A stretch of DNA of 64,000 bases. Origin: Selaginella tamariscina. Its lineage: Eukaryota; Streptophyta; Lycopodiopsida; Selaginellales; Selaginellaceae. This document shows positions 13,665 to 62,803 of the stretch, piece after piece (within the stretch, counting starts at the first letter, position 1; each line of letters begins with the position of its first letter). Position numbers and translations under genes: made by a program. The notes beneath the pieces were generated by a model, which saw only the letters and a list, made by a program, of their open reading frames with translations, searched no databases and was not told the origin of the DNA. Where the stretch lies: NCBI GenBank assembly GCA_003024785.1, contig PUQB01000020.1:124001-188000 (forward strand), given 5' to 3'.

Positions 13665-16035
13665 TCAATTCGGTAACCACTCCTGCTCTGATGGCCGTGC
13701 ATAATAGGTACCATCTCGTATGGAGAAAAAGAATTGTAGCGGCACAAGGTGACCAACTAAAGAATCACTCCCTTCTTTTATATACTCCTTGAGAAATTTT
13801 TTGAAGTCTGGCACCTCAGTCACAAGCAAAGCACAACTTTTTTTGGAGATGCAATTTTCAAAAAGATTCATCATATGCGGTAAGGTAAGTGCACTTGTCC
13901 TTTTTGTAGAGTTGGAGACCTTGCTGAAGAACGCATCAATATCTTCATGAGTGTGACCAACCATAAGGAAACTGAGCGTGATTGTTTCAAACACACCTTT
14001 GGCAACAAGCATTGACAAGTATGCTAGCACATATCTAGAAAATAAAAAAGTATGAGCTTGAGAAACCCTTAAGTAAAATGATTTACCTATTTTTGTTCTC
14101 GCCTGCACAATTATCCATCTGTAAAAGCAAATGACGAGGAAGCTTATTTGATGTTGAGGACACATGTACACTATTTGAGCTAGATCCCTCCACTGAACCT
14201 GAACTCTCAACAGGGCCATCTGTTTTTTGTGCAGGCTGCTGACAATGCCTCTCATATTCCCAAGTAGCCTCAAGTGCAGACGTGTTCATGAGAGCATTAT
14301 GTAAAGGTTGAAGGTGTTGTTTCTTCACTTTGAGATCACTGATAGGACTTGTCTGTGAGTGGGCTTCAAGGTTTCTGAAACACATGGCTAACGACCCAAT
14401 AGTGAAATTGGAGTCGCTAGACCAATGTGGAAGTGAAAAGTGTCCATATGACTCACAACCGTGTCCATGTGTTAGCACACCTGTCAATGAAATCGGAAGT
14501 TTCATGACATTTCCAAGGCACTTTGGTGTTGCAAAGAGCTTTGGAATGCTGGTCTTTGAATGATCCATCTTGTCATGGATCAAGCACAGGTACTCTGATG
14601 GGCGTGACACAGAAAGCATGCGGTGTGCATAGTACTGAGACCGGCAAGTTTGTTGTGCAATCATGTGGGCCTCCATCTTCCTTTGAATGGTAGTGATCTC
14701 CACCAAGGTTTTTGCACAAGCCTCTGCAGCCTTCAATGATGTACAAGTGTCACACTTGGAAAAGCTAGAGTGTTTTGCAATCTCCACATCCTTAAAATGA
14801 GTATTCCATATGTTGTTGAAGGTACCAGTGCAGATTGCTTGGAGCCCCATCAAACTGAGGCACTTGTTCACATGTTCACACAGCTTCAATTGAGTGTAGA
14901 TTGAAGGCAAAACCTTGAGATTTTCCCTGACCCCTGCATTTGTGGTTCGGCATTTGTGAGGCATCCTGTCTGCATTTGCTTCCACAAAAGCCTTGAGTAT
15001 CTCTATGGCTGCCATGATGTGAGAGCGGGTTTTGACCAAGCGAGTGTTCCCATGAACTGAGGTTCGCGCTCCATCTAGCCACTCATCCCTCCGACGGTAG
15101 AACGTGGTCTTTGGGATCCCGTATATACTGTACCAAGCTTTGAAGCAGATGGCCACCTTATTAAATACCATGGATGTACTCTGATAACCTGTGTCCGAGG
15201 CCATTCCATCAATACACCCAGTTAGTGCAGCATATACAAACTCATGCCTTTGCTTTTGGGTGAGCATACGAAAGACATGTCTACATTGGGTAATTTCATT
15301 CCGGTCTGCCATCTGACAACACTTCTTCTTGCAACAGTCAATCGTGGAAATGCTCGTAACACTTTCGGAAGATGTAGGATCCATCTTTACCCTCTTGCTG
15401 AAACTTGCAGGGGAAGATCTACAACCCATGAATCGCCTTTTTCTTACAATAGGACCAATGCAAGGAACCTCTTCAAATATGAGTTGTTCTTCCGGGTTGT
15501 TATTATTGAAATCCAACCCAGAATATGTTGAACCATCTTGCCGTCTTAATTCAGATGTTCGCCACCTCACGAGGGATCCAGGATACAATGTGCCATTAGG
15601 TGAAACCTCTGTCACAACTACACCCACGAAGTCGGACCCTAGTTTCTCTTCTGACACTGCTTCCATTGGATTTATAGCTGTGATGATGCCTCTTCCGACT
15701 TCAATCTCACGAAGAAAGAGAATCACCTCATCCATCACAGCAGGCAAGCCATCATCTGGTAAACTCGTGCTACTATTTGTTTGTGACTCTGCATATTCTG
15801 TGTCAGCCTTGACTTCATCCAAATTCCACAATACAGGAGAACCCTCCTCAAATTCCATTCCCAGAACCTCAACATGCTTGTAAATGGTGTTCACCCATAC
15901 GTACACACAAGATCCTTGGGCAATATTGTGACATGATGCATTATTATCTCGAACTTCCACAGTTCCAGTGCCAACTATCTCGTTGTTCCAAAGAAGACAT
16001 ACTTTATCTCCAGTATTAAACATATTGTCCTGCAC
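13665..16035 (-). CDS. DUF7869 transposase-like protein (RNase H-fold), apparently intact
   Basis: Two exons, 14087-16035 and 13665-14034, with a GT-AG intron of 52 bases. They join in frame to 772 residues. The N-terminus starts MFNTGDKVCLLWNNEIVGTG, followed by a second similar module (VILFLREIEVGRGIITAIN, then PGSLVRWRTSEL). The middle has a Cys/His-rich stretch, PKTTFYRRRDEW and SKCDTCTSLKAAE. The C-terminal core has LIHDKMDHSKTS, LLLQMDNCAGENKNRYVLAY and FLMVGHTHEDIDAFFSKVS. These three acidic motifs are spaced like an RNase H/DDE-type core and are the hallmark of the DUF7869 family. DUF7869 proteins are common, often multicopy, and look transposon-derived; their biochemistry is not established. 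The ATG at 16035 overlaps a good acceptor (TGTGCAG), so translation may start at the internal Met at about 16022. It is one of the few long genes here with no frame break. Confidence 0.85.
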
Positions 16036-16177
16036 ATAAATAATTGTATTATTTATGATATCTGTTTATGCAATATTTCTAAGAAATCTGAATTACGGTT
16101 ACTTAATAATATGCATATGCAATAATACATAATTATGTTTAGAGATAATATCTCATGTTTGATTAATACAACTGATG

Positions 16178-16825
16178 GGCGGGATTAATCCCGCCCACGA
16201 ATCCCTCCGACGAGGAACGGTCGGCGGGATTAATCCCGCCGCCGACTCCCTTCGGAGAGAGTCGGCGGGATTAATCCCGCCGACTCTCTCCTCGTCGGAG
16301 AGAGTCGCGGGATTAATCCCGCCGGACTCCCCCGAGGAGGAAGAGGCGGCGGGATTAATCCCGCGGCTCTTCCTTGTCGGAGGGAGTCCAAGGCGGGATT
16401 AATCCCGCCCACAATTCTTACGACGGGGAATGGGTGGTGGGATTAAACCCGCACATAACTCTCTCCAAAACTATGATTTCAAAGAGATCTCGGGATAAAT
16501 CCTGTCCCCAAATCCTTAAAACAGGAGTGGTGGCGAGATTAATCCCGCCACCCCTTCCCTGCCTCCTAAAATGGTTGGCGGGATTAATCCGCCGACAACT
16601 CTTTCTAATAAATTCTGGTAACTCTTCATCAGTTGAGAAGTTATCGGCGGGATTAATCCCGCCACTCTTTTTCAGTGGCGGAGAAGCATTGCCCGAGAGA
16701 TGGTGGCGGGATTAATCCCGCCACCTCTTTCGAAGAGGCGAAAAAGAAATGGCCGGATTAATCCCGCCGCCCCGGTTAACCTAGAATATTAAGTTAAAAG
16801 GATATTTAAACGGGATAAATCCCTA
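16178..16825. repeat. Palindrome array 1: GGCGGGATTAATCCCGCC, about 13 copies
   Basis: Copies of the perfect 18-bp palindrome, or close variants, are centred near 16187, 16232, 16273, 16315, 16357, 16401 and 16444 (spacing 41-45 bp). They continue less regularly near 16497, 16541, 16585, 16655, 16714 and 16760. Some spacers are themselves inverted repeats (GACTCTCTCC ... GGAGAGAGTC at 16282-16305). Copies at the right edge are degenerate (GGCGAGATTAATCCCGCC, CGGGATAAATCC). It is a GC-rich island in AT-rich DNA and begins about 140 bp upstream of the DUF7869 start. All frames read through the palindrome as AGLIPP or GGINPA, which is a by-product of the repeat. Confidence 0.95.
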
Positions 16826-16931
16826 ACGGAATATATTATAATCCTAATGCATTCCTAAACCCCTAAATGTAATTTTAAGAGAGAATGTAAGAGAGTGAAT
16901 CTTTATAAGTATTTTAAATTTGTTTATAATA

Positions 16932-17060
16932 CTTACTTGTAAACAGCACTGAAGGCGCCGTGCTTTCCTATAAAGAATAGCACCCAATTTAATCTCGCTC
17001 CTGAGATGATCACTATGAAGAAAAAAGAAGATCTAAAGAGTGAAAAATACAGAAATGAAG
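16932..17060 (-). promoter_or_regulatory. Possible 5' untranslated exon of the DUF7869 gene
   Basis: On the minus strand a leader-like, pyrimidine-rich stretch (TTTCTTCATTTCTG) ends in a strong donor, ACAA|GTAAGTATT, near 16937. An acceptor, TATGTGCAG, sits at the DUF7869 start. If these are spliced together, the intron would contain the whole first palindrome array. Inference from splice signals only. Confidence 0.3.
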
Positions 17061-18330
17061 AAACCCTTGCCGAGAAAGAACCAGATCTGAATTTGAGTGG
17101 GAAATTAAATGCATTTTCAAATTTACATGTCAGACCGACAATACATATGTCAGAAATTCAAATTTTTTAAAAAGAACAGAAAATAAAGATGAGTTGACAC
17201 AAATATCCGACACTCTGACATATATACTCTCCAGTTCCAATGAGTATTTTAAAATTGCATTTAATGTTATTCAAGTGATTCAAGCTGTTTAATATTACGA
17301 AATTTTAGACTATATTCTACATTCTTAGTATTCAAGTATATTTATATATATATATATATATATAAATATATACTTATACAATAAATAAATTGATATATTA
17401 TTATGTATCATTTAAAATATATTCATAGTCTGTTTATTATTATTATTTTCTTAATTACTCGAGTATTTAGTTTTCATTTCCTAGTATCAATGGGATATTC
17501 TTTATTATTTTATTAATATTTGAAGAATATTCTAATATTAAACCTGATTATCATAATTAAATTAGTCTTGTTCTTAATTATTGCAGTAATTATTCTACAT
17601 TTGTATATATTAATGGGATTTTCTCAATTAATTTGTTATTATTTCAAGAATATTCCTGTGTTAAACCTTATTATCAATATTAAATTAATATATATTATTA
17701 AAACTATATATGATATATATAATAAATGATGTATTTATGTATAATTTAAAATATGTTCATAGTGTGTATATTAATATCATTTCCTTAATTACTTGAGTAA
17801 TTAATCTTCTTTATATTAATGGATATTCTTTATTATTTTCTTATTATTCCAAGAATATTCCAATATTAAACATGATTATGATAATTAATTTAGTTAATTA
17901 TTTGAGTACTTAATTTACATTTGTATATATTAATGGGATTTTCTCAATTAATTTCTTATTATTTCAATGTTAAACCTTTTATCAATATTAAATTAATTAT
18001 ATTATTAAAACTATATATGGCTATATATTAGATAAAATCATATATTATTATGTATAATTTAAAATATGTTCATAGTGTGTTTATTAATATTATTTTCTTA
18101 ATTATTCGATGTTTGTTTTGCACACATATATAAACACAATCATAAATTTACACACGCATTACAAAACTTACAAAAACACATATGCACACACATGCACAAC
18201 CCTAAACCAAACTGAAGAAATATGTTGCTTCTTTATTGAAAACATCATGTTCAACGCATGTATGATATATGTACTCAATCTGTGTGTATGTAACACATTG
18301 AATTTACATGTGTAATATTTATATTAAGCT
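17061..18330. other. AT-rich low-complexity spacer between the palindrome arrays
   Basis: Very AT-rich, with related segments repeated (for example TTAATGGGATTTTCTCAATTAA near 17610 and 17930, and AATTTAAAATATGTTCATAGTG near 17746 and 18056). This suggests old, diverged tandem duplication of about 310 bp. No gene is supported. Confidence 0.6.
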
Positions 18331-18340
18331 TGTTGGGAGC

Positions 18341-18893
18341 AAACCCTAAACCCTAAACCCTAAACCCTGTGTACATGTGTTACAAAAATAATTTTTCAAC
18401 ACTCTCTCTTCACACATGCATGATCCATCCTAAACCCTAAACCCTAATATGTAACACAATGAATTTACTCATGTAATATGTATGTATGTCTGTGTGTATA
18501 CACGTGTGTATGTATATATGTGTACTCGTGTACTTCTCTCTTCTCTCATACATACACACCATGCATGATCCATGTTAATATGTACTGTCTCTCTTCTCTC
18601 AAACATACACACCATGCATGATCTATAATATGTACTCGGTCTCTCTAATATTATGTACTAATATGTATGTATGTCTGTGTGTATAATACACACCATGCAT
18701 GATCCATAATATGTATCTCTCTTCTTTCATATACTATGTATGTATATCTGTGTATAATATGTGTAAGTATATATGTGTACTAATATATGCAATGTGTACA
18801 AAAATAATTTTTCAACACTCTCTTCTCTCATACATACACACCATGCATGATCCATCCTAAATCCAAAACCCTAAACCCTAAACCCTAAACCCA
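18341..18893. repeat. Interstitial telomere-type repeats (CCCTAAA)n
   Basis: Short runs of the plant telomere unit occur at 18341-18368 (about 4 units), 18428-18446 (2-3 units) and 18857-18892 (about 4-5 units). They are all in the same orientation and embedded in CATGCATGATCCAT and TGTATGTATGTCTGTGTGTA repeats. These are interstitial, not a chromosome end, because genes and transposons lie on both sides. Confidence 0.9.
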
Positions 18894-19244
18894 TGTAATA
18901 TGTATGTATGTCTGTGTGTATACACGTGTGTATGTATATATTATGTGTATTAATATATGCAATGTGTATGTATGTATTGATACACATGAAACTTTAACAC
19001 TCTCATGGACACACACATGTTAAATCCCTGCATGATTTATATTTTGGGGTGTATGTGATACACCCACGCACACGCACGCGCTAATAATATAATGAAAGAA
19101 TATTCGTTTAGGGCGAATCTATATTTTATTCTTTTTAGGGTTTAAGTATATTCTCAGAAGGAATATTCTATTAGGGTTAATATATATATTTAATTCCTTT
19201 AGGGTTTAGGTATATTCTTAGGGTTTCAAGAGGCGGCGGCGGCT

Positions 19245-20445
19245 GTGCACACAGGTGAGATGTGTGTGTGTGTGTGTGTGTGTTGTATGTATGTATATAT
19301 GTATAGGAGTGTGCGTATAATTTTATTTATTGATCTATCTCTCGCACACACACGCACACTCCTGTGTATATATATGTGTGTGTGGGTGTGTGTTGTTTAT
19401 CTGTATGATTTTATTTGTTTCGCTCACACACGCATACACACGATATACATATACACATATATATATATACTATATACATAATACATACATATATTATGTG
19501 TACCAGTATCTATAATTTTTTTTTTATTGATCTATCTCTCCCACACACACGCACACTGCTTACATATATATATATTATATAATCAATGCATATTAACAAA
19601 TAGTATACAACACTAGTTTATATATATGCTTATATATTCATATGGGTTATATATCTATATACACACATATATATATGTGTGTGTTTATCTGTATATTTAT
19701 TTATTTATTAGTTTTATCTCTCGCACACACACGCACACTCCTGGTATATATATGTGTGTGTGTGTGTTTGTTTATCTGTATGATTTTATTTGTTTCGCTC
19801 ACACACGCATACACACAATATACATATACACATATATATACCTATATACATATATACATACATATATTATGTGTACCAGTATCTATATAATTTTTTTATT
19901 GATCTATCTCTCCCACACACACGCACACTGCTTTACATATATATATAATATATATAATCAATGCATATTAACAAATAGTATACAACACTAGTTTATATAT
20001 ATGCTTATATATTCACAGACTCTCTCTCTTTCTCTATGGGTTATATATCTATATACACACATATATATGTGTGTGTTTATCTGTATAATTTTATTTATTT
20101 ATTAGTTTTATCTTTCGCACACACACGCACTCATGTGTATATATATGTGTGTGTGTGTTTGTTTATATGTATGATTTTATTTGTTTCGCTCACACGCATA
20201 CACACGATATACATACACACACATATATATACCTATGTACACACATATATTATGTGTACCAGTATTGTATAATTTTATTTATTTATCTATCTCTTGCACA
20301 CACAGGTACACTCCTATACATACATACATACATATATATATATATATTATATATATATATATATATACACACACATATATATATGTGTGTGTTTTATCTG
20401 TATAATTTTTTATTTATTAATTTTATCTCTCGCACACACGCTAAG
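19245..20445. repeat. Tandem repeat, unit about 375-395 bp, about three copies
   Basis: Landmark words recur at regular steps: GTACCAGTAT near 19500, 19874 and 20258, and TCTCGCACACACACGCACAC-type sequence near 19339, 19720 and 20115, with a partial copy near 20428. Each unit is a mixture of (CA)n, (TA)n and (TG)n. The last partial unit runs directly into the second palindrome array at about 20455. Confidence 0.85.
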
Positions 20446-20454
20446 CCCCTCGAG

Positions 20455-22019
20455 CGCGGGATTAATCCGCCGCTATAGGTTTATGGCCTCTCGGCGGGAT
20501 TAATCCCGCGATAGGTTTATGGCCTCGGCGGCGGGATTAATCCCGCCGCTATATGGTTGGGGCCATGGCGGCGGGATTAATCCCGCCGCCCACCCATGCC
20601 CTGCGCGGAATGCAGCGGGATTTATCTCGCCGGCAATGGCCTGTGTGAAGGCCCTAATGGGCGGGATTAATCCCCTGTGTGAAGGCCCTAATGGGCCCTA
20701 ATCGAAGAGCCTGCATGAAAAGATCCTGCATGGAAGGCTAACCGAAGAGCCTGCATGACATGTCCTGCGTGTAAGGCGGTGGGATTAATCCCGCTGCCCA
20801 GGGAATTCACGCAGGACATGAACGGCGGGATTAATCCCGCCCCACGCTCATGCCCTTCGCAGAGGCGGCGGGATTAATCCCGCCGCTTAGGCACTTCCGC
20901 AAGATATAAGCGGCGGGATTAATCCCGCCCCACCCATCCCTGTTCAAAATGCCGCAGCCAATATATATGTGTGAGCGCATGATTTACGAGAGGGCGGCGG
21001 GATTAATCTCTCCGAACCTTCATTGCCCGGTGGCGGGATTAATCCCGCCACCCTTCTTTTTTTCCTCCATTGGTATGTTGAATCAATCCCGACTAACTCT
21101 ATTTGAGACGGAGAAGGTTTACAAAATACCAATGGAGGGAACTGAGAAGGGTGGCGGGATTAATTTCACCATCCCTTACATGGTGGGCGGGATTAATCCC
21201 GCCGCCTTTTCGGAGCCCCTGAAGGGGTGTGAGAAATAAATCTTGCCCAATTCTCTCTGAGAACGAGAAAGGTGGCGTCCAGCGGGATTAATCCCGCCGC
21301 TACGAATGCCCTGAAGGGCCTGGGCGGGATTTATCCCGCCGCCATTGGCCTGCCTGAAGGGCCTAGGCGGCGGGATTAATCCCGCAAGATTTCGCACAGG
21401 GCATTGGCGTTCGGCGGGATTAATCCCGCCGACTAAGGCCCGAGTGAAGGGCCTGGGAGGCGGGATTAATCCCGCCGCGACGCATGCCCTGCCGGAATCG
21501 GGCGGGATTTATCCCGCCGCCATTGGCCTGCCTGAAGTGCCTAGGCGGCGGGATTAATCCCGCCCGATTCCGCGCAGGGAATTGGCGTCCGGCGGGATTA
21601 ATCCCGCCGCATAGGGACCGAGTGAAGGCCCTGGGCGGCGGGATTAATCCCGCCGAGTCTTCAATGCCTGTTGGAGGAATGAATCCCGCCACCCTTCCTT
21701 TTTTCTCCATTGGTGAGTCGGACCAATCCCAAACGTTTCTGTCTGAGACGTAGAAGGTTTACAACATACCAATGGAGAGAATGGGAAGGGTGGGGAAATT
21801 CATTTAACCATCCTTACATGGTGGGCGAGATTAATCCCGCCTCCTTTCTGGAGTCACTGAAGGGGTGTGAGAAATAAATCCTGCCCAGTTCTCTCTGAGA
21901 CCGAGAAGGGTGGCAAGATTAATTCCGCACTCCCGTTCAAGGCCTCCAGAAAGGTGGCGAGATTAATCCCGCCCACTCTTTCAGGAGGCATTGAAGGGGT
22001 GGCGAGATTAATCCCGCCG
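20455..22019. repeat. Palindrome array 2: GGCGGGATTAATCCCGCC, about 28 copies
   Basis: Between 21281 and 21654 nine copies are centred at 21289.5, 21331.5, 21377.5, 21421.5, 21467.5, 21509.5, 21555.5, 21599.5 and 21645.5, with steps of 42, 46, 44, 46, 42, 46, 44 and 46 bp. Four copies form a higher-order unit of exactly 178 bp (21331.5 to 21509.5 and so on), and the spacers are also shared between the two units. Variants include TTTATC for TTAATC and, toward the right end, GGCGAGATTAATCCCGCC. A second motif pair bracketed by CCATTGGT and ACCAATGG occurs at about 21069-21146 and 21703-21775. Confidence 0.95.
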
Positions 22020-22132
22020 CACCTTCCATGTGAATATATATGTGTATTAGTATATATAAGTTGCATATCTCATTTTATTTACTTTTATCATCTTATCATA
22101 ATATTTCGAGTAAAAGCTAGGAATCTATGTAA

Positions 22133-22218
22133 AACTGTCCAGAGCTCACATTTGTGGTGGTTCTAAAACGAAATGTTATCTTTCTTTTGCACTACACAAA
22201 TGTGAGCTTCGGACAGTT
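22133..22218. repeat. Short stem-loop, miRNA-precursor-like
   Basis: The left arm AACTGTCCAGAGCTCACATT (from 22133, then TGTG) and the right arm CACAAATGTGAGCTTCGGAC (ending in AGTT at about 22218) pair over about 24 bp with one 2-base mismatch, around a loop of about 37 bases. It lies between array 2 and the ParB-type gene. It could be a microRNA-like hairpin, a small MITE or a regulatory dyad; the sequence alone does not decide. Confidence 0.6.
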
Positions 22219-22357
22219 AATTACGTCTACTTCTCTCTGTGTATTATTTTTGTATATTCGGGTTTATACAAGTGTGTGTTTTTTATATGATTTGTATTCA
22301 TAGTGTATTATTTTGCAGAAGGACGATTTGATCAAACAAGGAGATCGAGTCATTAGT

Positions 22358-25300
22358 ATGGAGTCGTCGTCAAATTCTGGGTAAGAATTAAAATAAAATC
22401 TGTTATACTCGGATACTTGAACTAATCATTTTTGTATTCAGATGTGGAATTGAGGTGACATTAAAGACAAGAGCAGGAGAAGAGATGGGCAGGGGGATTC
22501 TGGAATCAACTTGGCCATATTTTAAGATAAATGGGAAGCGCATTGGAGCAACCATGGCTGCTGTCAAATTAACCTCTGTCACATCTCATGGACAAGCAAA
22601 ACAATGGAAAGTAGATTCGCTAGTCAAGCACCCGAAAGCAGGCTGCGAACCCAGATTGGACGATGCTCGACAGATATGCCTTGTTCCATCCAATGTCACG
22701 TTCTCGGATCCAGAGGTCGTCAGTTACAACATTAATTTCGGGTGGTTTTGTCGACTTGTGGATAATGACGTTCACGTGTTCACTAATGATGTTGACCTTG
22801 GAGTTCTTCTTCAACTCAACGAAAGCCCATCTATGGAGGGGATCCATCTGGATGTCTACTTCGAAATCTTCAGACTCATCGAGTAGGTGTATTGTCAGGA
22901 GATATTGCTTCACAATACAGAAAATCAGCAAGTGGAGCAATCTTCCCTCTTCACATTGAAGAAGAACACAGCGACATCATAAGGGAGATTGAGAGGGTGG
23001 CTCGGTCTCAGGTTCTCTACAGATCACGTTCAATTTGCTTAGGAAGCTTCGGGAGCTGGAAGAGTGTGCCGAGAACACTAGAACAGCTGCAGTCGGGGAT
23101 CACACATGTTGATTCGGATCGCAAAAGAAAATCATCAATCGTTTTGTCAGCTGCACCTGTGGCATCTCATGCTGCAATAAGTCACAAGGAAATGATGTTG
23201 GATGATAAGATTTATCCTTGTAGGGTTAAATATTGCAGCGTCAACCCAAACTTCAATTACAGGCCACTCAACCAGGAACGTGTAGCTGAGCTCATGGAGA
23301 AGATGAAGGACGACAATTCTTATACCGTTCCACATAATGCTGTTTTGTGTCCATACTATGAAAGAAGGAAGGGCGCTGACAAAGTCTGGATCACAACACC
23401 AGAACAACTCATGAAGATTCAGACGGAGAATAAAAATCTATCAAGTACTACATCATTAGTGGCCAGCACACAATAACGGCAGCCCAACGACTTCTCGATG
23501 AACACAACAAAGGAACGATGGCAACAAAACTTTCCGAGCATACCCGTGAGAAGCTGACAAAAAGATCGGCGTTTTTAGCTAAGCCGAATCTCACAATCGA
23601 GCAGTACCATAAGTTATCGGCGGAATGGGACGCTGCCGACACCAACCACTACAACAGCAAAATATGGGAGAAGTTTAAACACACGCGAGCCGTGTGGGAA
23701 TCTCTTCAGCGACCACAAAGAGCTACCGCAGGGAATACACAATCTGCGGAATACCGGGTAAGCAAATTTTGGGCGGGATTTATCTCGCCGGTATATTAAT
23801 CTGTCTTTTTCCTCAGAGAGTTGAAGAAATTGCAGCAGTTGATTTTGCCCAGGTGGGCGGGAAGGAAACATCCTTTCTGATGATGTTGATTTCTTGCCCC
23901 GAAGATAGGATCTTTGCCAAATGGTTGGGGATTATGGAATCCTTTTCAAAAGGAACACTGAAGAAGAAGCAGACAAGTGAAGGGGAGCCCTCAGAAAAGT
24001 CTGCAAAGAAACCCAGTAAGACGCCGAAGGCTAAGTCTGTTAATCTACAAAGGATGTAGACAACGATTTCAAGCTCACATGGTTGAAGCCTTTAAATGGA
24101 ACAACGATGGAGGAGATGGAAGTCTTGGCTGATTTGGTGATCGATGGCAAACTACAAATTAATAACAGCAGCCCAACCTCTCCTTTTCATCTCAAGGCAA
24201 TGGAGTTGAAGACGGTCAGGCATTTCAAGGAGTGGTTGGGAATACACTGCCACAAACTGGGTTGGACCTCGACTTCAACATATGAAGAGGTCAGCAAATA
24301 TTTGCATGTGACGAACGATGATATGCTTGTCGAATGGGTGAACCAATCGGAAGATCTAGGCAAGAATCTATTGCACGCCAACGCCAAAAAGGAGAACATT
24401 GGGATGACGCCTTCTCTTATGGCAGTCCTTCAGCAGCGGAGAACCGAATTGAACCTTATAAAGGAGGATGCTACGAATCACGACAAGCCCTACAGATGTT
24501 TGTTGTTAGATTCGGAGACTTTATGGGGTAACATCACTGCTTGTAGGAAACCGTTTCAATTGTTCGTGATGGATCGGCGGGTGTCAAAAAATCTTTCGAC
24601 AGATAGGGCACTAGAGGATCTGGTGGAGAAACTTAGCCGTGCAAGCATATACATAGAAGGTATTTATTATTGAATTCATGCTTGCGCTCTTCACTGATAC
24701 CTACTTTTTCAGGTATTTATTTCTTGATTCTTGCTCATGTCACCGATACTTTTGCCTTCGCCTTCGCCAAGAAGAATAGACATCGTTGGACAGGATTTTA
24801 TATGAACGATGCTAATCCCAAGTGCATTGATACCGTTGTTCACTTGGTTGTTAGGAATGCGCCAAACAATTTCAAGCTTCCAAATGACTGGCCAGGCATC
24901 TGTTTGCACTCCAACGGCCCTGAACCTCCATCCGATACACCGATAGGTATGAGTGACGTATTCGGCAATGTACGTTATCCAAACATTACACGCGAGCATC
25001 GTCAACTTGATCAGGGGTCCTCACAGTGATGCGTGGGTTTTTGACTACTGCACTAGGGGGTCCGTCTTGAAGGAGTGTTACCTTCGGCATACATGTGTGT
25101 TTGCCGTTGAAAATAAGACCATGGTTGAGGACCTGAACAAGTGGATAGATTGGGTCTCAACTGAGTACCCCAACGAATCCATAAAGGCGTATTTGAGAAA
25201 GTTCCCTCCAGATAAGTGCGATAGCTCTGAAGGTGAATCTGGTTCAATCTCGGAGTCTGAGAACGAACTTCAATCAGATATTAGACCGGAAGTTATCTCG

Positions 25301-25444
25301 AGGAGTACAGAACATTCGCACACTCCAGGACCCATGGAAACATCAATAGAAGATGCAGAAGATCTTGAACCATCTCACAAGCGGCTTAGACCTTCTTCGC
25401 CTCACTCAGAAGGTAATAGCGAAGAAGAATTGATAATGAATTGA
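22358..25444 (+). CDS. ParB/sulfiredoxin-fold protein with degenerate DNA N-4/N-6 methylase-like domain
   Basis: Exons: 22358-22380, 22442-23757 (frame breaks near 22880 and 23420), 23817-24659 (break near 24050) and 24713-25444 (break near 25000). The frame is open upstream to an acceptor at 22318 (IKQGDRVIS), so an earlier start exon is likely. N-terminal module: IEVTLKTRAGEEMGRGIL and KQWKVDSLVKHPKAG. ParB-like domain: NYRPLNQERVAELMEKMKDD, then YYIISGQHTITAAQRLL, resembling the ParB/Srx helix and G-x-H/R box. The C-terminal half looks like a class I methylase: FQLFVMD in the DPPY position but followed by RRV instead of PPY, and DAWVFDYCTRGSVLKECYLR resembling the AdoMet-site D-x-F-x-G-x-G region but with GSG lost. 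Catalysis is therefore doubtful. ParB-plus-methylase fusions are known in phage and bacterial proteins. Domain calls are by eye. Confidence 0.6.
23774..23791. repeat. Solitary palindrome copy inside an intron of the ParB-type gene
   Basis: GGCGGGATTTATCTCGCC lies in the 59-base intron 23758-23816. It is the same variant type (TTTATC) found in array 2. This is the only clear copy seen outside the two arrays. Confidence 0.9.
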
Positions 25445-25513
25445 TAGAGTGAGAATAGTTGTAAATGAGTGTAACATAAGGCATTTTTGTATATTTCTTT
25501 TATATTTGTACAG

Positions 25514-26876
25514 AAAATAAATTCTCAAGGATTAATGAAGCTTTTAGTTCAAACATGGGTCACACATTAACAAGGTAAATAATATACCTTGATAATTTTA
25601 AGGTCAGCTAATTATCATTTTGCAGATGTAATGAAATAATTGAGAACATGGATTTTCAGCATTGCATGAGGTAAGAGAGGGGTTTGGCGACAATTTCTTG
25701 TGCCACATGTCAGAATGACAGAGTTCATGCAGGAAATGGATAATAATGCAGCTCAAAACATCGTTACCATGGGGGCCACTTCATCATCATTTTTATTGGC
25801 TTCAGTTCCGAAATCAATTTCTTCAGCGCATGCAATATCTGAATCTTGTAAGGATGATGTACAATTAAATGATGAAGGGATAGGCAACGATAGTGGCAAC
25901 GGATAAATGTGAAAGGGAGCAAACAAGTGATTTGCAAAGTATTCAAGAGGCAACGCTATCTCATGTTACTCATGGCCATATTGTGTTGTTGGATGTCAAT
26001 GGTGTTCTGCTTCATCGACAAAGGCCCGAGGATAGAAAAAGAAATCAAACAAGGAGATTTCATTCCTTGTCATGGTAAATTTCGATATGATATTATTTTT
26101 CGTCCAGGGTTGGATCGTCTCTTTCAAAAGCTTAAGGAGATGGGTGCGCTTGTGGGGATTTGGTCATGCATGCAGATTCATAACTTAACACCGCTGTTGA
26201 ATTTACTTAAGAAACATTGTAGTGTTGCAGAAGAGGTGATTCGTAAAGATTGGATTTTTGACCAGCGAATGTGTTATAACCTCTCGAATTTCACAATATA
26301 AGAAAGGAAAGCAAGCCATACTTCTTCAAGAATGAAAGAATAATTGGGACTCATGGGGAGATCAGTCGCTTAAGGATAATGAAGAATGCACATATCTTAG
26401 TAGTAGACGACTCTCCTCAGAAGGCTATGCTCAACCAAAACATTGCTTGTATTCATCCAATCACTTTCGATCCATATTCTGATACCGATATCATGGATGA
26501 GCTAGTGAACTACTTGGATACGTGCCTCAGAAAGAAGAATCTCGAAAATTTTTGTGAGCAGTATCCACCGTATCATACATTTCCTGAAGCTTTTCTTTCT
26601 CGTGATATTGAATTTTATAAAATGAAGGATAGCAACCGGGCGCTTTATAATATTATTCTTAAGGAACGTCAGTTTTTAGATGAGCCTTTATGCAGACCTT
26701 CTCTTATCACATCTTATGTATTAACAAGGATGGCAACTCCCAATTGCATTCGTGAGAGTGTTAAGTGGTGGCAACAACATCAAGATATTGACCAAAATGA
26801 TTTGATTAATCCGGAGAGTGATGATTTAGACAAAATGAAAAGATTTCTTTGTATGATAGAAAGAAAGTATTTATAA
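25514..26876 (+). CDS. FCP1/NIF-type HAD phosphatase domain, possibly the C-terminal part of the ParB-type protein
   Basis: The HAD-type FCP1/SCP (NLI-interacting factor) domain gives HIVLLDVNGVLL, IIFRPGLDRLFQKLKEMGAL, VGIWSCMQIHN, SKPYFFKNERIIG, then AHILVVDDSPQKAMLNQNIA. In place of DxDx the nucleophile motif is D-V-N-G, a variant I associate with a plant FCP1-like subgroup. Exons 25514-25574, 25626-25670 and 25714 onward have good GT-AG borders. They join in phase with each other (ENKFSRINEAF; LTR/CNEIIENMDF; CMR/MTEFMQEMDNN). They also join in phase to a donor at 25413 (SE|GTAATAG) inside the preceding gene. So this may be the C-terminus of one larger protein, with 25442-25444 an intron-retention stop. 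Frame breaks lie near 25905, 26035 (A run) and 26300. It could instead be a separate gene. Confidence 0.65.
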
Positions 26877-27139
26877 AAAATTAACATGTTGATAAGAAAA
26901 TGATTTCATTTGTAATTATGTTTGATAGTATTTCTTCATTATTGTAAACTATTTTTAGAATAATATGAATATTCTAAGATATTTTAGGAATATTCCTTAC
27001 TAAGTAAGGTTATTGAAGGATTAATTAATTAATTAATTAATATTTAAGGCTTAATTACATATTAATTAAATGATTAATTAATAATTAAAACTTAAGTATT
27101 AATTAGTAATTTATTTTATATTCCCATTTTCACGTATCA
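26877..27139. other. AT-rich spacer
   Basis: Contains TTAATTAATTAATTAATTAA-type low complexity and AATATTCTAAGATATTTTAGG-like short dyads. No gene seen. Confidence 0.6.
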
Positions 27140-27295
27140 TGCCCACTTTAGTTACAACGTGCATAATCTCAAAGTCGTAAATAAAGTCCAACGAGCAATG
27201 CAACCAACCAAGTTTCTCTGTTTCAACAATAAATACTACAACATGATTGCCTTTCAACAAGAATTATGCAAGTATGCATGGAGCTTCTCAAAACT
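27140..27295 (-). pseudogene. Ty3/gypsy pol fragment (end of RNase H), left piece
   Basis: On the minus strand, pieces in shifting frames read as the retroviral-type RNase H end: KLHAYLHNS, RNLVGCIARW and YDFEIMHVVTKVG. These match the Ty3/gypsy pattern (KF..YL; R.AR W...; FDFEI.H). This piece continues the RT/RNase H fragment at 28959-29372, from which it is split by a solo LTR. Confidence 0.6.
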
Positions 27296-54339: not shown

Positions 54340-55907
54340 CCGCTTCGCCTGAAAATGTGCCTTTTGAATCAAGCATTCTGGCTTATGGTCTCGTGTGTGT
54401 GTGTGTTATTTTCAATTCATAATATATTACAAATGAAATAATTAAATTTATTTAGTAAAAAATGGAATATTTTTCAAAATAATTATATTATATTGTGATA
54501 TATAAATATATAATAAAATTTTATTGATTTTTTTAAAATGCTTTTTAATTTTTAATTTTGAAGTTTATGAATTTTAAATTGAAGTTTCAGGGGTGTATAT
54601 ATAAATATAAAACTCTAGGGTATATATGTAAATATGATAAATTTCAGAGGTATAAATGTAATTTTTCTTTAAAATATTAATAGTATACATGCATCTATAT
54701 ATATATAAAGTATAAACATCACTATTGAATAATACAAAATATGGATATTGTATTCAAGAGAAACTATGTTGCGTGTGTGTATTTATAAATACACGAATGG
54801 AATTAATATATAACTTATAATTTTATAAAGCGGTCCTCAACAACGTATTAAATGATATGCGTAAGCATAATAGTATCCGTGTATATAAGTGATCTAGTTA
54901 TTTATATATTTCATTTCTCGTTAATAATACTTTAATGTTTTAGTATATAGCTCATATATATGAGAATATATAAATTTGGTTTAAGAAAGTAAACTCGTTT
55001 TAAGTTTTATAAGTATATATTAAAATTTTAAAGTATACTAGAATATTCTTAATTTTATTTTTTTGAGCACAAATCAAAGCTAGTCCCTAACACATGGTGT
55101 GCACATGTGCACGTTACTTGGCAATAGACAAAAATGATATATTTTTATATTAATTAATTAAAATCTATTGAATAGTGTTGGCACGTAACGTATAAGAAGT
55201 AATTAAAATCTCTCTCTCAACACACATTTAGTATTGTTATTTTAAAAATCAAAATATTACTATTGAAGTTTTCAATATATATATGTAAATTTAAAATTTT
55301 TATATAGGTATATAAAAATGTAAAACTTTTAAAAATATATATGTAAATATGATAAATTTTAGAGGTATAAATATAATTTTCCTATTTTTAATTTCAAACA
55401 ATTTTAACCTTCCTCAATATATTATTACTTTTTGTTATTCCTTTTTAACTTAAAGCTAAATACTGACCAATTTAATAACAAGTTTATAAGTGTATTTTAG
55501 GCAAACTATATACATTTTGATTAATGGAGAAACTGTCTTTTAATTTTATCATAAATTCTTTCGTAGAGTGTTAACTTTTCTACGTGCCTATAGAAAAAAA
55601 TTTTTAAAAATCGCTATGATCAGGTCAAAGACATCGTGTTAATTGTTTTTGTTATTGTAGTCAAAATTATCGTCGAAGTGAGTTTTAAATAAAATATAAC
55701 TTCAGTTTTGAATCGATATACAGCTGCCTGGTGCTTGTTTAGTCTATAATGACAGCTATTATCTTCATATTTTAGATGACGTAGCAATAAAAAATGTGTA
55801 ATATGAAGACAGAAGGAAGATGCAATCTAAAGACTTCAATAATGTCGACGATTGCATAACTCTATACATATACGGTATCATTAAGTCGGAATTGTACAGC
55901 AGCAACA
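54340..55907. other. AT-rich intergenic region with a dispersed repeat copy
   Basis: Contains the first of three related AT-rich segments (about 54680-55000; others at about 58260-58560 and 63245-63600). No gene. The immediate upstream sequence of the next gene (GGAATTGTACAGCAGC, then AACAATG) is shared with the inverted pseudogene copy. Confidence 0.6.
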
Positions 55908-57475
55908 ATGTTGAAGGCTTGGACATGTTGTATTGCCTTTTTGCTATGTTTTGCAGTGTCGAGTACAGAGAGACTTTCGTTCAGAGAAGCAGACAACACA
56001 GCACTACCTGGTCGCAAATTTGATTACATCGTGGTCGGAGGGGGAACCGCCGGCTGTGCACTGGCAGCCACGCTCTCGCACCGCTACACAGTACTCGTGC
56101 TAGAGAGAGGAGGCAACCCGTATCTTAATCCGAACATCACCCGTATAGAAAACTCTGGATCCACCTTTGCGTCTCCCGGCGGAATAAACTCTCCGAACCA
56201 GGCTTTCACTTCGGACGACGGAGTTCAGAACATCCGTCCGAACGTACTGGGAGGCGGGAGCTCTATAAACGGAGCAGTATACAACCGTGCCGACAGTGAG
56301 TTCCTACGTGAGTCGAAGCTAGATCTCGACTTGGTAAACGACTCTTATTCGTGGGTGGAGAGGGTGGTCGCGTCTGCTCCGGCAAACTACAGCGCACTGC
56401 AAGAAGCCGTCCGTGGGGCGCTACTGGAAGTCGGACTGGGACCTCAATACGGTTTCACCTACGAATACGTTATTGGAACTAAGACATCAGGAATCACATT
56501 CGACAAGCAAGGACGTCGACACCCTTCTTCCGACTTGCTCCGGGAGTACGCAAACCCCAAGAACATTGTGGTCTTGCTTCATGCCACTGCTCACAAGATT
56601 CTTTTCCACGGTACCTGCGTGTGTGTAGTGTGTGTGTGTTTCCTTTCTTAATATACGTTCTTCTAGGTGGACGCACAAGTGGAGTCTTGTATAGCGATAC
56701 TTTGGGTCATTTCCACACTGCATCTCTTCGTTCTACAACCGGCAGCGAGGTTGTTCTCTCGGCGGGTGCCATAGGGAGTCCACAACTGCTCATGTTAAGT
56801 GGGATCGGTCCAAAGGCTCACCTCAAAACGACTGGTATCAAGGTGGTACTGGATTCCCCATACGTAGGCAAAGGCATGGCCGACAACCCGTCCTCGGTAA
56901 TACAGGTTCTGTCCCCGGTCCCTGTCGGAAGTCTCATCCAACAGGTGATAGGGACGACACCGGCTGGGTTTAGTGTAGGGGCATTTGTACAAACGGAATT
57001 CTCCGGTGCCATCTTCAAGGAAATTAACGGTCCTCTTTCTACTGGAGAACTTCTACTGAGAAGTCGGAACGTTTCCGACATGCCGCGAGTGAGATTCAAC
57101 TACTTTCAAAACTCTGTGGATTTACAACGGTGTGTGGCCGGTGTTAACGTGTTGGAAGAGATGCTTCTATCAAACTCGATGCGGAGGGTGCGGTTTGACA
57201 ACCAGAGTTTGCCGTCCGGCGGTACAGTCTCGTCTCCAATAAGAGGGAATACAACGCTTGTTGGAAATGGGTACATAAACAGCACTATATCGGAGTATTG
57301 CAAGAAGAACATTGCTACAAACTATCACTACCATGGTGGGTGTAGGCTTGGCGAAGTGGTGGATTATAGCTTCAGTGTGATGGGCGTGAGGGGTTTAAGA
57401 GTCGTGGATGGATCCACGTTTAAAGCAACACCTGGAACTAATCCTCAAGCTACAGTCATGATGTTGGGAAGGTTG

Positions 57476-57552
<77 letters not shown>

Positions 57553-57640
57553 GCATGCACACAAAGTCTTTTTAACCAACACGTTATACAGGTATGTGGG
57601 AACCAAAATTCTTGAGTCTAGAAGGAACAAGATCCATTGA
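55908..57640 (+). CDS. HOTHEAD/mandelonitrile-lyase-like GMC oxidoreductase
   Basis: FAD-dependent glucose-methanol-choline family enzyme. Plant HOTHEAD-like members act on long-chain omega-hydroxy fatty acids or are hydroxynitrile lyases; the substrate here is unknown. Three exons, 55908-56610, 56667-57471 and 57592-57640, join to an unbroken 518 residues. A signal peptide (MLKAWTCCIAFLLCFAVSST) precedes the FAD dinucleotide motif [19 protein letters not shown] and VLVLERGG. The FAD loop NVLGGGSSINGAVYNR, GMC signature 2 (GAIGSPQLLMLSGIGP) and GMADNPS follow. The C-terminal domain has MPRVRFNYFQNSVDLQRCVA, the catalytic NYHYHGGCRLGEVVD and PGTNPQATVMMLGRYVG. At 518 residues it is shorter than the usual 550-600; the loss lies between FVQTEFSGAIF and the substrate-domain strand. 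Intron 2 is almost entirely (CT)n(AC)n. Confidence 0.93.
57477..57552. repeat. (CT)n(AC)n microsatellite filling GMC intron 2
   Basis: The intron 57472-57591 is almost all dinucleotide repeat, starting five bases after the donor GTTGCT. Confidence 0.95.
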
Positions 57641-61464: not shown

Positions 61465-62688
61465 AGAAGGACGGGTTGTCGGCCATGCCTTTGCCTACGG
61501 ATGGGGAATCCAGTACCACCTCGATACCCAATCATTTCGAGGTGAGCCTTTGGACAGTTGTGGACTCCCTATGGCACCCGCCGAGAACAACCTCGCTGCC
61601 GGTTGTGGAACGAAGAGATGCAGTGTGGAAATGACCCAAAGTATCGCTCCACTTGTGCGTCCACCTAGAAGAACGTTTCCTAGTAAGAATGGAAACACAC
61701 GCACGCACGCACGCACCTTGGAAAAGAATCTTGTGAGCAGTGGCATGGAGCAAGACCACAATGTTCTTGGGGTTTGCGTACTCCCGGAGCAAGTCGGAAG
61801 AAGGGTGTGTCGACGTCCTTGCTTGTCGAATGTGATTCCTGATGTCTTAGTTCCAATGACGTATTCGTAGGTGAAACCGTATTGAGGTCCCAGTCCGACT
61901 TCCAGTAGCGCCCCACGGACGGCTTCTTTCAGTGCGCTGTAGTTTGTCGGAGCAGACGCGACCACGAATAAGAGTCGTTCACCAAGTCGAGATCTAGCTT
62001 CAGAAACTCACTGTCAGCACGGTTGTATACTGCTCCGTTTATAGAGCTCCCGCCTCCCAGCACGTTCGGACGGATGTTCTGAACTCCGTCGTCCGAAGTG
62101 AAAGCACAGTAATTTTAATTAGTTAAAATTTTTGTAAACTAGTTTGTCAATATCAGTTAAATTTCTCAATTCTGAATATTCCGGTAGAATATTGTTTTAC
62201 CGGTTAATATTTCCTGTTACAGAGTTCTGTGGGCAAGTTAAGTCATGGCGAATCTTTAAGTCAAGCCAGAATATTTTAATGTTTATGAAGAATATACTAA
62301 TCGGAGATTTACGAATTAAATCTGACCAGTCATAATTACAAGGTGCAAATTATGCATCCAATTTCTAAACGGAAGCATAATTAATAAACAACCGGAAACG
62401 CTGGTTCTGCGAGTATGTTCCGCCGGGGAACGCAAAGGTGGATCCAGAGTTTTCTATGCGGGTGATGTTCGGATTAATATACTGGTTGCCTCCTCTCTCT
62501 AGCACGAGTACTCTGTAGCAGTGCGAGAGCGTGGCTGCCAGTGCACAGCCTGCGGTTCCCCCGCAGACGATGATGTAATCGAACTTACGACTCAGTGTTG
62601 TGTTGTGTGCTTCTCTGAATGAAAGGCTCTCTGTGCTCAAAACTGAGCGTAACAAGAATGTAATGCAGCATATCCAAGCCTTCAACAT
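61465..62688 (-). pseudogene. Truncated, interrupted HOTHEAD-like GMC copy
   Basis: Inverted duplicate of the gene at 55908. From the ATG at 62688 it reads [40 protein letters not shown] (first Gly of the FAD motif replaced by Cys) and [18 protein letters not shown]. It is then interrupted by 295 bp (62106-62400) and resumes with SDDGVQNIRPNVLGGGSSIN to YGFTYEYVIGTKTSGITFDK, with frame breaks. The intron matching intron 1 of the intact gene is still present (about 61674-61715), so this is a DNA-level duplicate, not a retrocopy. Homology stops after GMADNPS near 61465. The whole substrate/catalytic C-terminal half, including NYHYHGGC, is missing. It cannot make a working enzyme. Confidence 0.9.
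62106..62400. mobile_element. 295-bp AT-rich insertion in the GMC pseudogene
   Basis: Defined by comparison with the intact copy: coding similarity stops at ...GTGAAAGC and resumes at CTGGTTCTG. The flanking words GAAAGC and GAAACG could be a degraded target duplication. The insert has no coding content and no clear terminal repeats, so its class is unknown. Confidence 0.55.
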
Positions 62689-62803
62689 TGTTGTCGTTAT
62701 ACAATTCCAAGTTAAGACTGAGGATTTTATGTGCAGACTAAACGTGTGACCAAGTATAGTGCATGCGTGTGATACACACACACATGTATGTGTGTATATA
62801 TAT

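Follow-up and report, generated by a model that had tools for sequence, protein, structure and literature searches.

We analyzed a 64,000-bp stretch of the Selaginella tamariscina genome (contig PUQB01000020.1, positions 124,001 to 188,000; its full length is referred to as the window), which contains two arrays of an 18-bp palindrome, GGCGGGATTAATCCCGCC, located between two divergent genes. Together, the arrays and the genes constitute one high-copy DNA transposon, which had been missed by the original prediction for this DNA. The element is a class II transposon with terminal inverted repeats (TIRs), is about 14.7 kb long, and has a very high copy number in the S. tamariscina genome. The window copy is without about 1.25 kb on the left, which in complete copies comprises the C-terminus of the DUF7869 protein and the left TIR, and is organized as follows.

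13669..27164, no strand: left-truncated transposon copy; homology to other copies breaks at 13669, and the common right end is at 27164.
13669..16023, minus strand: DUF7869 gene, with exon 1 at 16023-14087, an intron at 14086-14035, and exon 2 starting at 14034 and truncated at 13669.
16178..16768, no strand: left palindrome array of 12 sites, adjoining the DUF7869 gene on its upstream side.
16830..20440, no strand: AT-rich centre with a G+C content of 0.27, microsatellites, and telomere-like CCCTAAA runs.
20455 (about)..22018, no strand: right palindrome array of 28 sites (up to four mismatches allowed), adjoining the rightward gene on its upstream side.
22359..25444, plus strand: rightward multi-exon gene, given as open reading frames (ORFs), ParB-like by eye and broken here by small insertions or deletions.
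23758..23816, plus strand: intron with the lone palindrome 23772-23789, its borders judged by eye.
25894..26876, plus strand: reading frames resembling NIF (FCP/SCP-like phosphatase), with two PF03031 matches (E=7e-4 and 7e-3) that do not reach the curated cut-off.
27138..27164, no strand: right TIR CATGCCCACTTTAGTTACAACGTGCAT, the common right end of the copies.

The palindrome is a perfect dyad, and its sites were scored by the number of mismatches allowed. The window contains 39 palindromes with up to three mismatches, compared to zero expected from 100 shuffles, and 18 of the 39 are mismatch-free. Thirty-eight lie within the two arrays and one is located in an intron, at position 23772, in agreement with the original prediction that more than 35 copies form two blocks and occur almost nowhere else in the window. 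At up to four mismatches, the left array has 12 sites and the right array 28, with a single site (23772-23789) outside both. This lone palindrome falls within an intron of the rightward gene, 1771 bp beyond the last array site. A lone site lies 1772-1779 bp from the array in all five other loci that cover the stretch (L009, L010, L015, L017, and L018), and because of this recurrence we regard it as a part of the array system. The number of units in the left array differs among copies. The promoter-proximal end of the right array is nearly invariant over seven copies, save one added unit in L018. The interval that separates the right array from the start of the rightward gene contains an inverted repeat, GAGCTCACATTTGTG / CACAAATGTGAGCTTC, at 22130-22225, which is mostly preserved in six other copies and may form a leader hairpin.

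Neighboring sites are most commonly 44-46 bp apart (200 of 344 distances, across copies). The 30 spacings shorter than 60 bp in the window have a mean of 43.2 bp and a standard deviation of 4.5 bp. They show no periodicity peak around 10.5 bp, for which three runs of sites gave phase resultants of 0.57, 0.40, and 0.18. The proposal that the sites face the same side of the DNA helix is contradicted by this spread of spacings and by the missing helical peak.

We searched the genome, 300.7 Mb in 1391 contigs, and found 59,903 palindrome sites at up to two mismatches, compared to none for a reversed palindrome of equal composition; their position inside or outside the element was judged from a sample of loci. 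Ten 10-kb stretches from contigs C1-C3 were chosen only by the first palindromes listed, and some of them are adjacent. All ten have arrays within sequence homologous to the window DUF7869 gene, the centre, and/or the rightward gene. The first 500 bp of the centre are present in nine of these ten loci. Four further 10-kb stretches were selected regardless of sites; one contains an array, inside the element, and three have none. The two stretches adjoining the window contain no array, and no palindrome pairs were found in viral contigs.

Loci selected by gene rather than by palindrome display the same arrangement. The first such sample comprised 16 of 153 matches to the DUF7869 exon, spread along the ranking, with about 1.1 kb upstream read. 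Palindromes are present upstream in 15 of the 16 loci, one of which (L057) has four sites only; the exception, L045, contains tandem repeats of the 5' part of the DUF7869 gene, with no array in the stretch read. The second sample comprised six loci from a DUF7869 profile search of the genome (300 matches), of which five contain an array; in the remaining one (L100), similarity to the element spans no more than about 50 bp. The check for palindrome clusters at other copies of the DUF7869 gene was therefore positive in 20 of 22 loci, each with the array and element together. The predicted partnership of the arrays with both genes is borne out by these loci and by the ten chosen by palindrome. 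The same counts rule out a simple satellite without fixed partners, as the original prediction had maintained.

The element has sharp ends. The 27-bp ends read ATGCAAGTTG.../...CAACGTGCAT; the left end ATGCAAGTTGTAACTAAAATGGGCATG and the right end CATGCCCACTTTAGTTACAACGTGCAT are common to the copies and form a 27-bp inverted repeat with two mismatches. Other copies extend about 1250 bp past the equivalent of position 13669 to reach the left end. With both ends accepted, a 26-bp end core has 4,134 matches (2113 + 2021) genome-wide at up to three mismatches, and its reversed control has none. The right-type 26-bp core has 1,551 matches (779 + 772) at up to one mismatch, and its control none. These match counts suggest about two thousand element equivalents.

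Target-site duplications (TSDs) were examined in 20 pairs of left and right ends, taken from listed exact places 13.9-15.1 kb apart, with 51 bp read per end. With the ends defined as ATGCA...TGCAT, nine of the 20 pairs have an exact 4-bp duplication. A tenth has one only if an absent last T is omitted, and ten show none. One copy is inserted inside another: comparison of the L014 and L041 junctions to the uninterrupted sequence of the window reveals a duplicated target ATTA, or possibly 5 bp under an alternative parse. Among five end pairs studied earlier, the duplication is clear in the nested copy, is 3 bp long in the C2 copy, and is absent from the C1:797k and C3 copies; the C1:3k pair has a duplication of 4 or 5 bp only with an altered first base. 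L104 and L105 are internally deleted copies of about 7 kb, flanked by the 4-bp duplications TTTT and AAAC, respectively. L104 retains six palindromes, and L105 is devoid of both arrays and retains the intron palindrome only. The L104 junction was found twice with nearly identical flanks, so the second is considered a duplicate locus or contig, and the L105 junction is unique. Beside element copies in L016 (5851-9012) and L023 (5144-6881) are duplicated or inverted pieces of the left end, suggestive of rearranged or aberrant insertions. The centre carries telomere-like AAACCCT runs at 18341-18368 and 18856-18892 in the window, and CCCTAAA/TTTAGGG words are present in all ten other loci counted.

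The DUF7869 protein is the presumed transposase of the element. A spliced protein joined from exons of two copies matches PF25273 (DUF7869) with E=9e-47, and the exons of the window were also searched by themselves; the intron borders were taken from the sequence by eye. Some copies of the gene have open frames of more than 1000 codons. The motifs HDKMD, MDNCAGENKN, and GHTHEDID resemble a DDD arrangement by eye, and there is a weak Transposase_23 match (E=0.06). A literature search for the name 'DUF7869' gave no match.

The rightward gene of the window has a 1-bp deletion near 22865 relative to six of six other copies. By eye, the middle of its product is ParB-like, and the C-terminal part recalls a degenerate amino-methyltransferase motif. 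The ParB-domain label given to the gene by the original prediction found no support, as there is no ParB match in Pfam, PHROGs, NCBIfam, or Protein Data Bank (PDB) sequences, nor a match to any curated family. The matches obtained are weak and unrelated or unnamed: Rhomboid_N (E=0.08), BUD3 domain (0.1), and an unnamed PHROG (0.04). The C-terminal part has three weak matches among PDB sequences, the best of which is a designed protein (E=3e-4). A single-sequence AlphaFold prediction of a window ORF has a mean predicted local distance difference test score of 34 and no usable fold. The two proteins have in common an N-terminal segment of 37 residues (BLASTP E=7e-4, single comparison), which in the DUF7869 protein overlaps the region weakly similar to Transposase_23. 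This short segment lends weak support to the claim that the genes are related. The NIF-like frames lie inside the element in other copies too. An active FCP/SCP-like enzyme would have a DxDxT/V motif; at the position of this active-site motif the frames have DVNGV.

Outside the element, another repeat family begins to its right and recurs several times between window positions 27294 and 43500 (27.3-31, 35-38, and 41-43 kb); it also occurs in L019 and L022. A GMC oxidoreductase gene and its inverted, decayed duplicate are located at 55860-57640 and 61495-62802, and a further GMC oxidoreductase-like copy lies just beyond the window (L020).

The 18-mer looks like the constrained unit of the arrays. 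Between the left and right arrays of the window, palindromes have a mean identity of 0.90, a value inflated by the selection of sites at up to four mismatches, and spacers of 15-32 bp, the lengths retained, have 0.34 compared to 0.32 after shuffling. Over 377 site contexts, the frequency of the commonest base is 0.87-1.00 within the dyad and falls sharply, to 0.58 or less, at the three positions flanking each edge. When two subfamilies were compared, majority differences were found in 4 of 125 palindrome columns and in 25 of 247 spacer columns (P=0.023); columns with few rows were omitted here, as in the right-array, singleton-variant, and CpG-change counts given below. In pairwise comparisons, palindromes differ by 7.7%, less than the spacers (12.1%) and one flank (14.0%). 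Of the original interpretation, the gene association and the 18-mer as an apparent constrained unit stand; the helical phasing was rejected, and the ParB label is unsupported by the family searches.

Changes in paired positions of the dyad are one-sided in 396 cases, compensatory in 6, and of another kind in 5. Because compensatory changes are so rare, maintenance of the dyad fits recognition of its bases and not RNA pairing, and an RNA or cruciform hairpin is ruled out as the maintained feature. The spacers have 5.82 self-complementary paired bases compared to 5.14 after shuffling, but a control with re-dealt halves gave 6.03. Outside the dyad, symmetry is raised at flank position 1 (0.54 compared to 0.39) and at positions 7-9 only.

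The closest parallel to this layout is provided by the VANDAL transposons of Arabidopsis, whose VANC proteins counteract silencing. VANDALs are MULEs, and VANA21 is the transposase gene. Published accounts describe the VANDAL21 motif as YAGTATTAY, in arrays of one orientation (PMC5735166, PMC10398659), and locate the repeats targeted by VANC upstream of VANA21 as well as within introns of VANC21 and VANB21 (PMC5735166). The systems have in common a high density of short motifs within the noncoding parts of a single transposon family, enrichment of the motif in the element, its location upstream of one element gene and in introns, and the expansion and contraction of repeats. The S. tamariscina element differs in its 18-bp perfect palindrome, its ends, its 4-bp TSD, and its DUF7869 protein. 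Neither a MULE transposase nor a VANC-family protein was identified, as Pfam searches of the two element proteins yielded no family other than DUF7869. By analogy of layout the element may be called VANDAL-type, and we do not assign it to the VANDAL family.

Sola elements have 4-bp TSDs and TIRs of varying length, exceed 15 kb in some cases, and occur in a moss; some Sola2 elements carry Fanzor passenger genes, and Sola2 TSDs are AT-rich (PMC10741241, PMC3627910). The TSD length, TIRs, and size of our element fit Sola, and membership fits on these three features only. The TSDs observed here include G and C, unlike those described for Sola2. CACTA/EnSpm elements have CACTA termini, a 3-bp TSD, and TNPA-type subterminal sites. 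They resemble the element in having arrays of short motifs and through the weak Transposase_23 match, whereas the arrays here are internal and promoter-proximal. Because of the ATGCA...TGCAT ends and the 4-bp TSD, CACTA/EnSpm is excluded. A narrow literature search on palindromic tandem arrays and transposase binding in Selaginella transposons gave no match.

The arrays occur regularly in the interior of the element, immediately upstream of both divergent genes, and an intron of the rightward gene holds an extra palindrome. Since this layout matches that of VANC target repeats, we propose that the palindrome is bound by a dimeric protein encoded by the element. We hypothesize, with the chances about evenly balanced, that the arrays are promoter-proximal binding arrays for such a protein and serve autoregulation or anti-silencing in the manner of VANC targets. 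The reader would be the product of the rightward gene, or the N-terminal module that it has in common with the DUF7869 protein; because of this common segment, either protein is a candidate. Many occupied sites would create a dense patch across both promoters, which could activate or tune the transposase and its partner or shield them from silencing, in the way that VANC proteins act on VANDAL target repeats. The arrays would gain and lose whole units while the 18-mer is retained.

Base composition provides hints of silencing. The two arrays have observed-to-expected CpG ratios of 1.12 and 0.93, compared to 0.40 for the DUF7869 gene and 0.77 for the rightward gene. Changes of C to T (or G to A) in the DUF7869 gene affect 25 of 624 CG positions (4.0%) and 4.1% of CHG positions, compared to 75 of 5190 others (1.4%). 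At the right array end they affect 1 of 283 CG positions (0.4%) and 1.1% of CHG positions, compared to 7 of 1076 others (0.7%). As a preliminary reading of the sequences, the pattern fits lower methylation of the arrays and neighboring parts, or selection on the sites.

Several observations weigh against binding arrays with an anti-silencing role. The left-array rates (CG 72/1319, 5.5%; CHG 4.4%; other 133/1938, 6.9%) come from an alignment that includes repeat units of uncertain orthology and leaves out L014. The arrays are not alone in lacking CG-biased change, since the rightward gene (CG 15/729, 2.1%; CHG 0.6%; other 47/2652, 1.8%) and the centre (CG 8/125, 6.4%; CHG 4.8%; other 54/926, 5.8%) behave similarly. 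Spacers alone have CpG ratios of 0.75 and 0.52, and the CpG signal of the arrays may stem from selection on the palindromes. Neither element protein shows a recognized DNA-binding fold. When all variable columns are counted, palindromes (33/126) and spacers (61/251) do not differ (P=0.71). In pairwise comparisons, palindromes (220/2848) are as divergent as the other of the two flanks (7.9%). Shared and singleton variants are distributed 17:42 against 81:144 (P=0.36, in a test that included L049, which is cut by its contig end and was misaligned), and the right array has 0/108 against 5/312 (P=0.33).

It is also conceivable, albeit unlikely, that the arrays are sites of transposition, to which the transposase or its partner binds to join the ends, as at the subterminal repeats of CACTA/Spm. 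The arrays accompany the element genes in nearly all loci examined, and the Transposase_23 match points in the same direction. However, the arrays are about 3.8 and 5.1 kb from the ends and adjacent to promoters, not subterminal. Furthermore, L105 has a 4-bp duplication in spite of its missing arrays, although its deletion may postdate insertion, as its junction is unique.

Reading of the arrays by a host regulator appears decidedly unlikely. The half-site GGCGGGA/TCCCGCC resembles an E2F core, and the arrays are promoter-proximal, so the element could have hijacked a cell-cycle factor. However, the ATTAAT centre, which is not known to belong to the E2F core, is kept at 0.94-1.00 per position, and the site occurs again in intronic sequence of a gene that the element itself carries.

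We give little credence to the arrays being a functionless by-product of slippage and gene conversion, which would spread units inside the transposon. The changes in unit number between copies and the several non-significant tests of constraint agree with such an origin. Against it, the left and right arrays have the 18-mer and little else in common, the lone intronic site occupies a nearly fixed place, and the subfamily comparison favors constraint.

Maintenance similar to that of parS or of the family of repeats in Epstein-Barr virus (EBV) oriP, in which a ParB-type protein would load onto the palindromes and serve the replication, segregation, or pairing of element copies or of excised circles, is highly improbable: clustered palindromes adjoin the gene of a candidate binding protein, ParB-like by eye, and arrays of EBNA1 sites are a precedent, but the protein has no ParB family match, and the element, which has the termini and the TSDs expected of an integrated transposon, is present in about two thousand copies with promoter-proximal arrays.

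Returning to binding arrays for an element-encoded protein, we speculate on a broader scenario, which we consider rather unlikely. The element would represent a new superfamily of large plant DNA transposons with its own sequence-specific anti-silencing device, evolved independently of VANDAL and composed of twin palindrome arrays and an element-encoded dimeric reader. The reader would possibly combine a ParB-type fold with a degenerate methyltransferase and act via the module common with the transposase. Such a device would have allowed the element to spread to about two thousand copies, with a total of some 60,000 palindromes. Should a protein of the element indeed recognize the arrays, this would be a second, independent case of transposon-encoded, sequence-specific control of silencing, in a lycophyte, and would offer a simple symmetric site with tens of thousands of natural variants. 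The element also suggests a transposase function for DUF7869.

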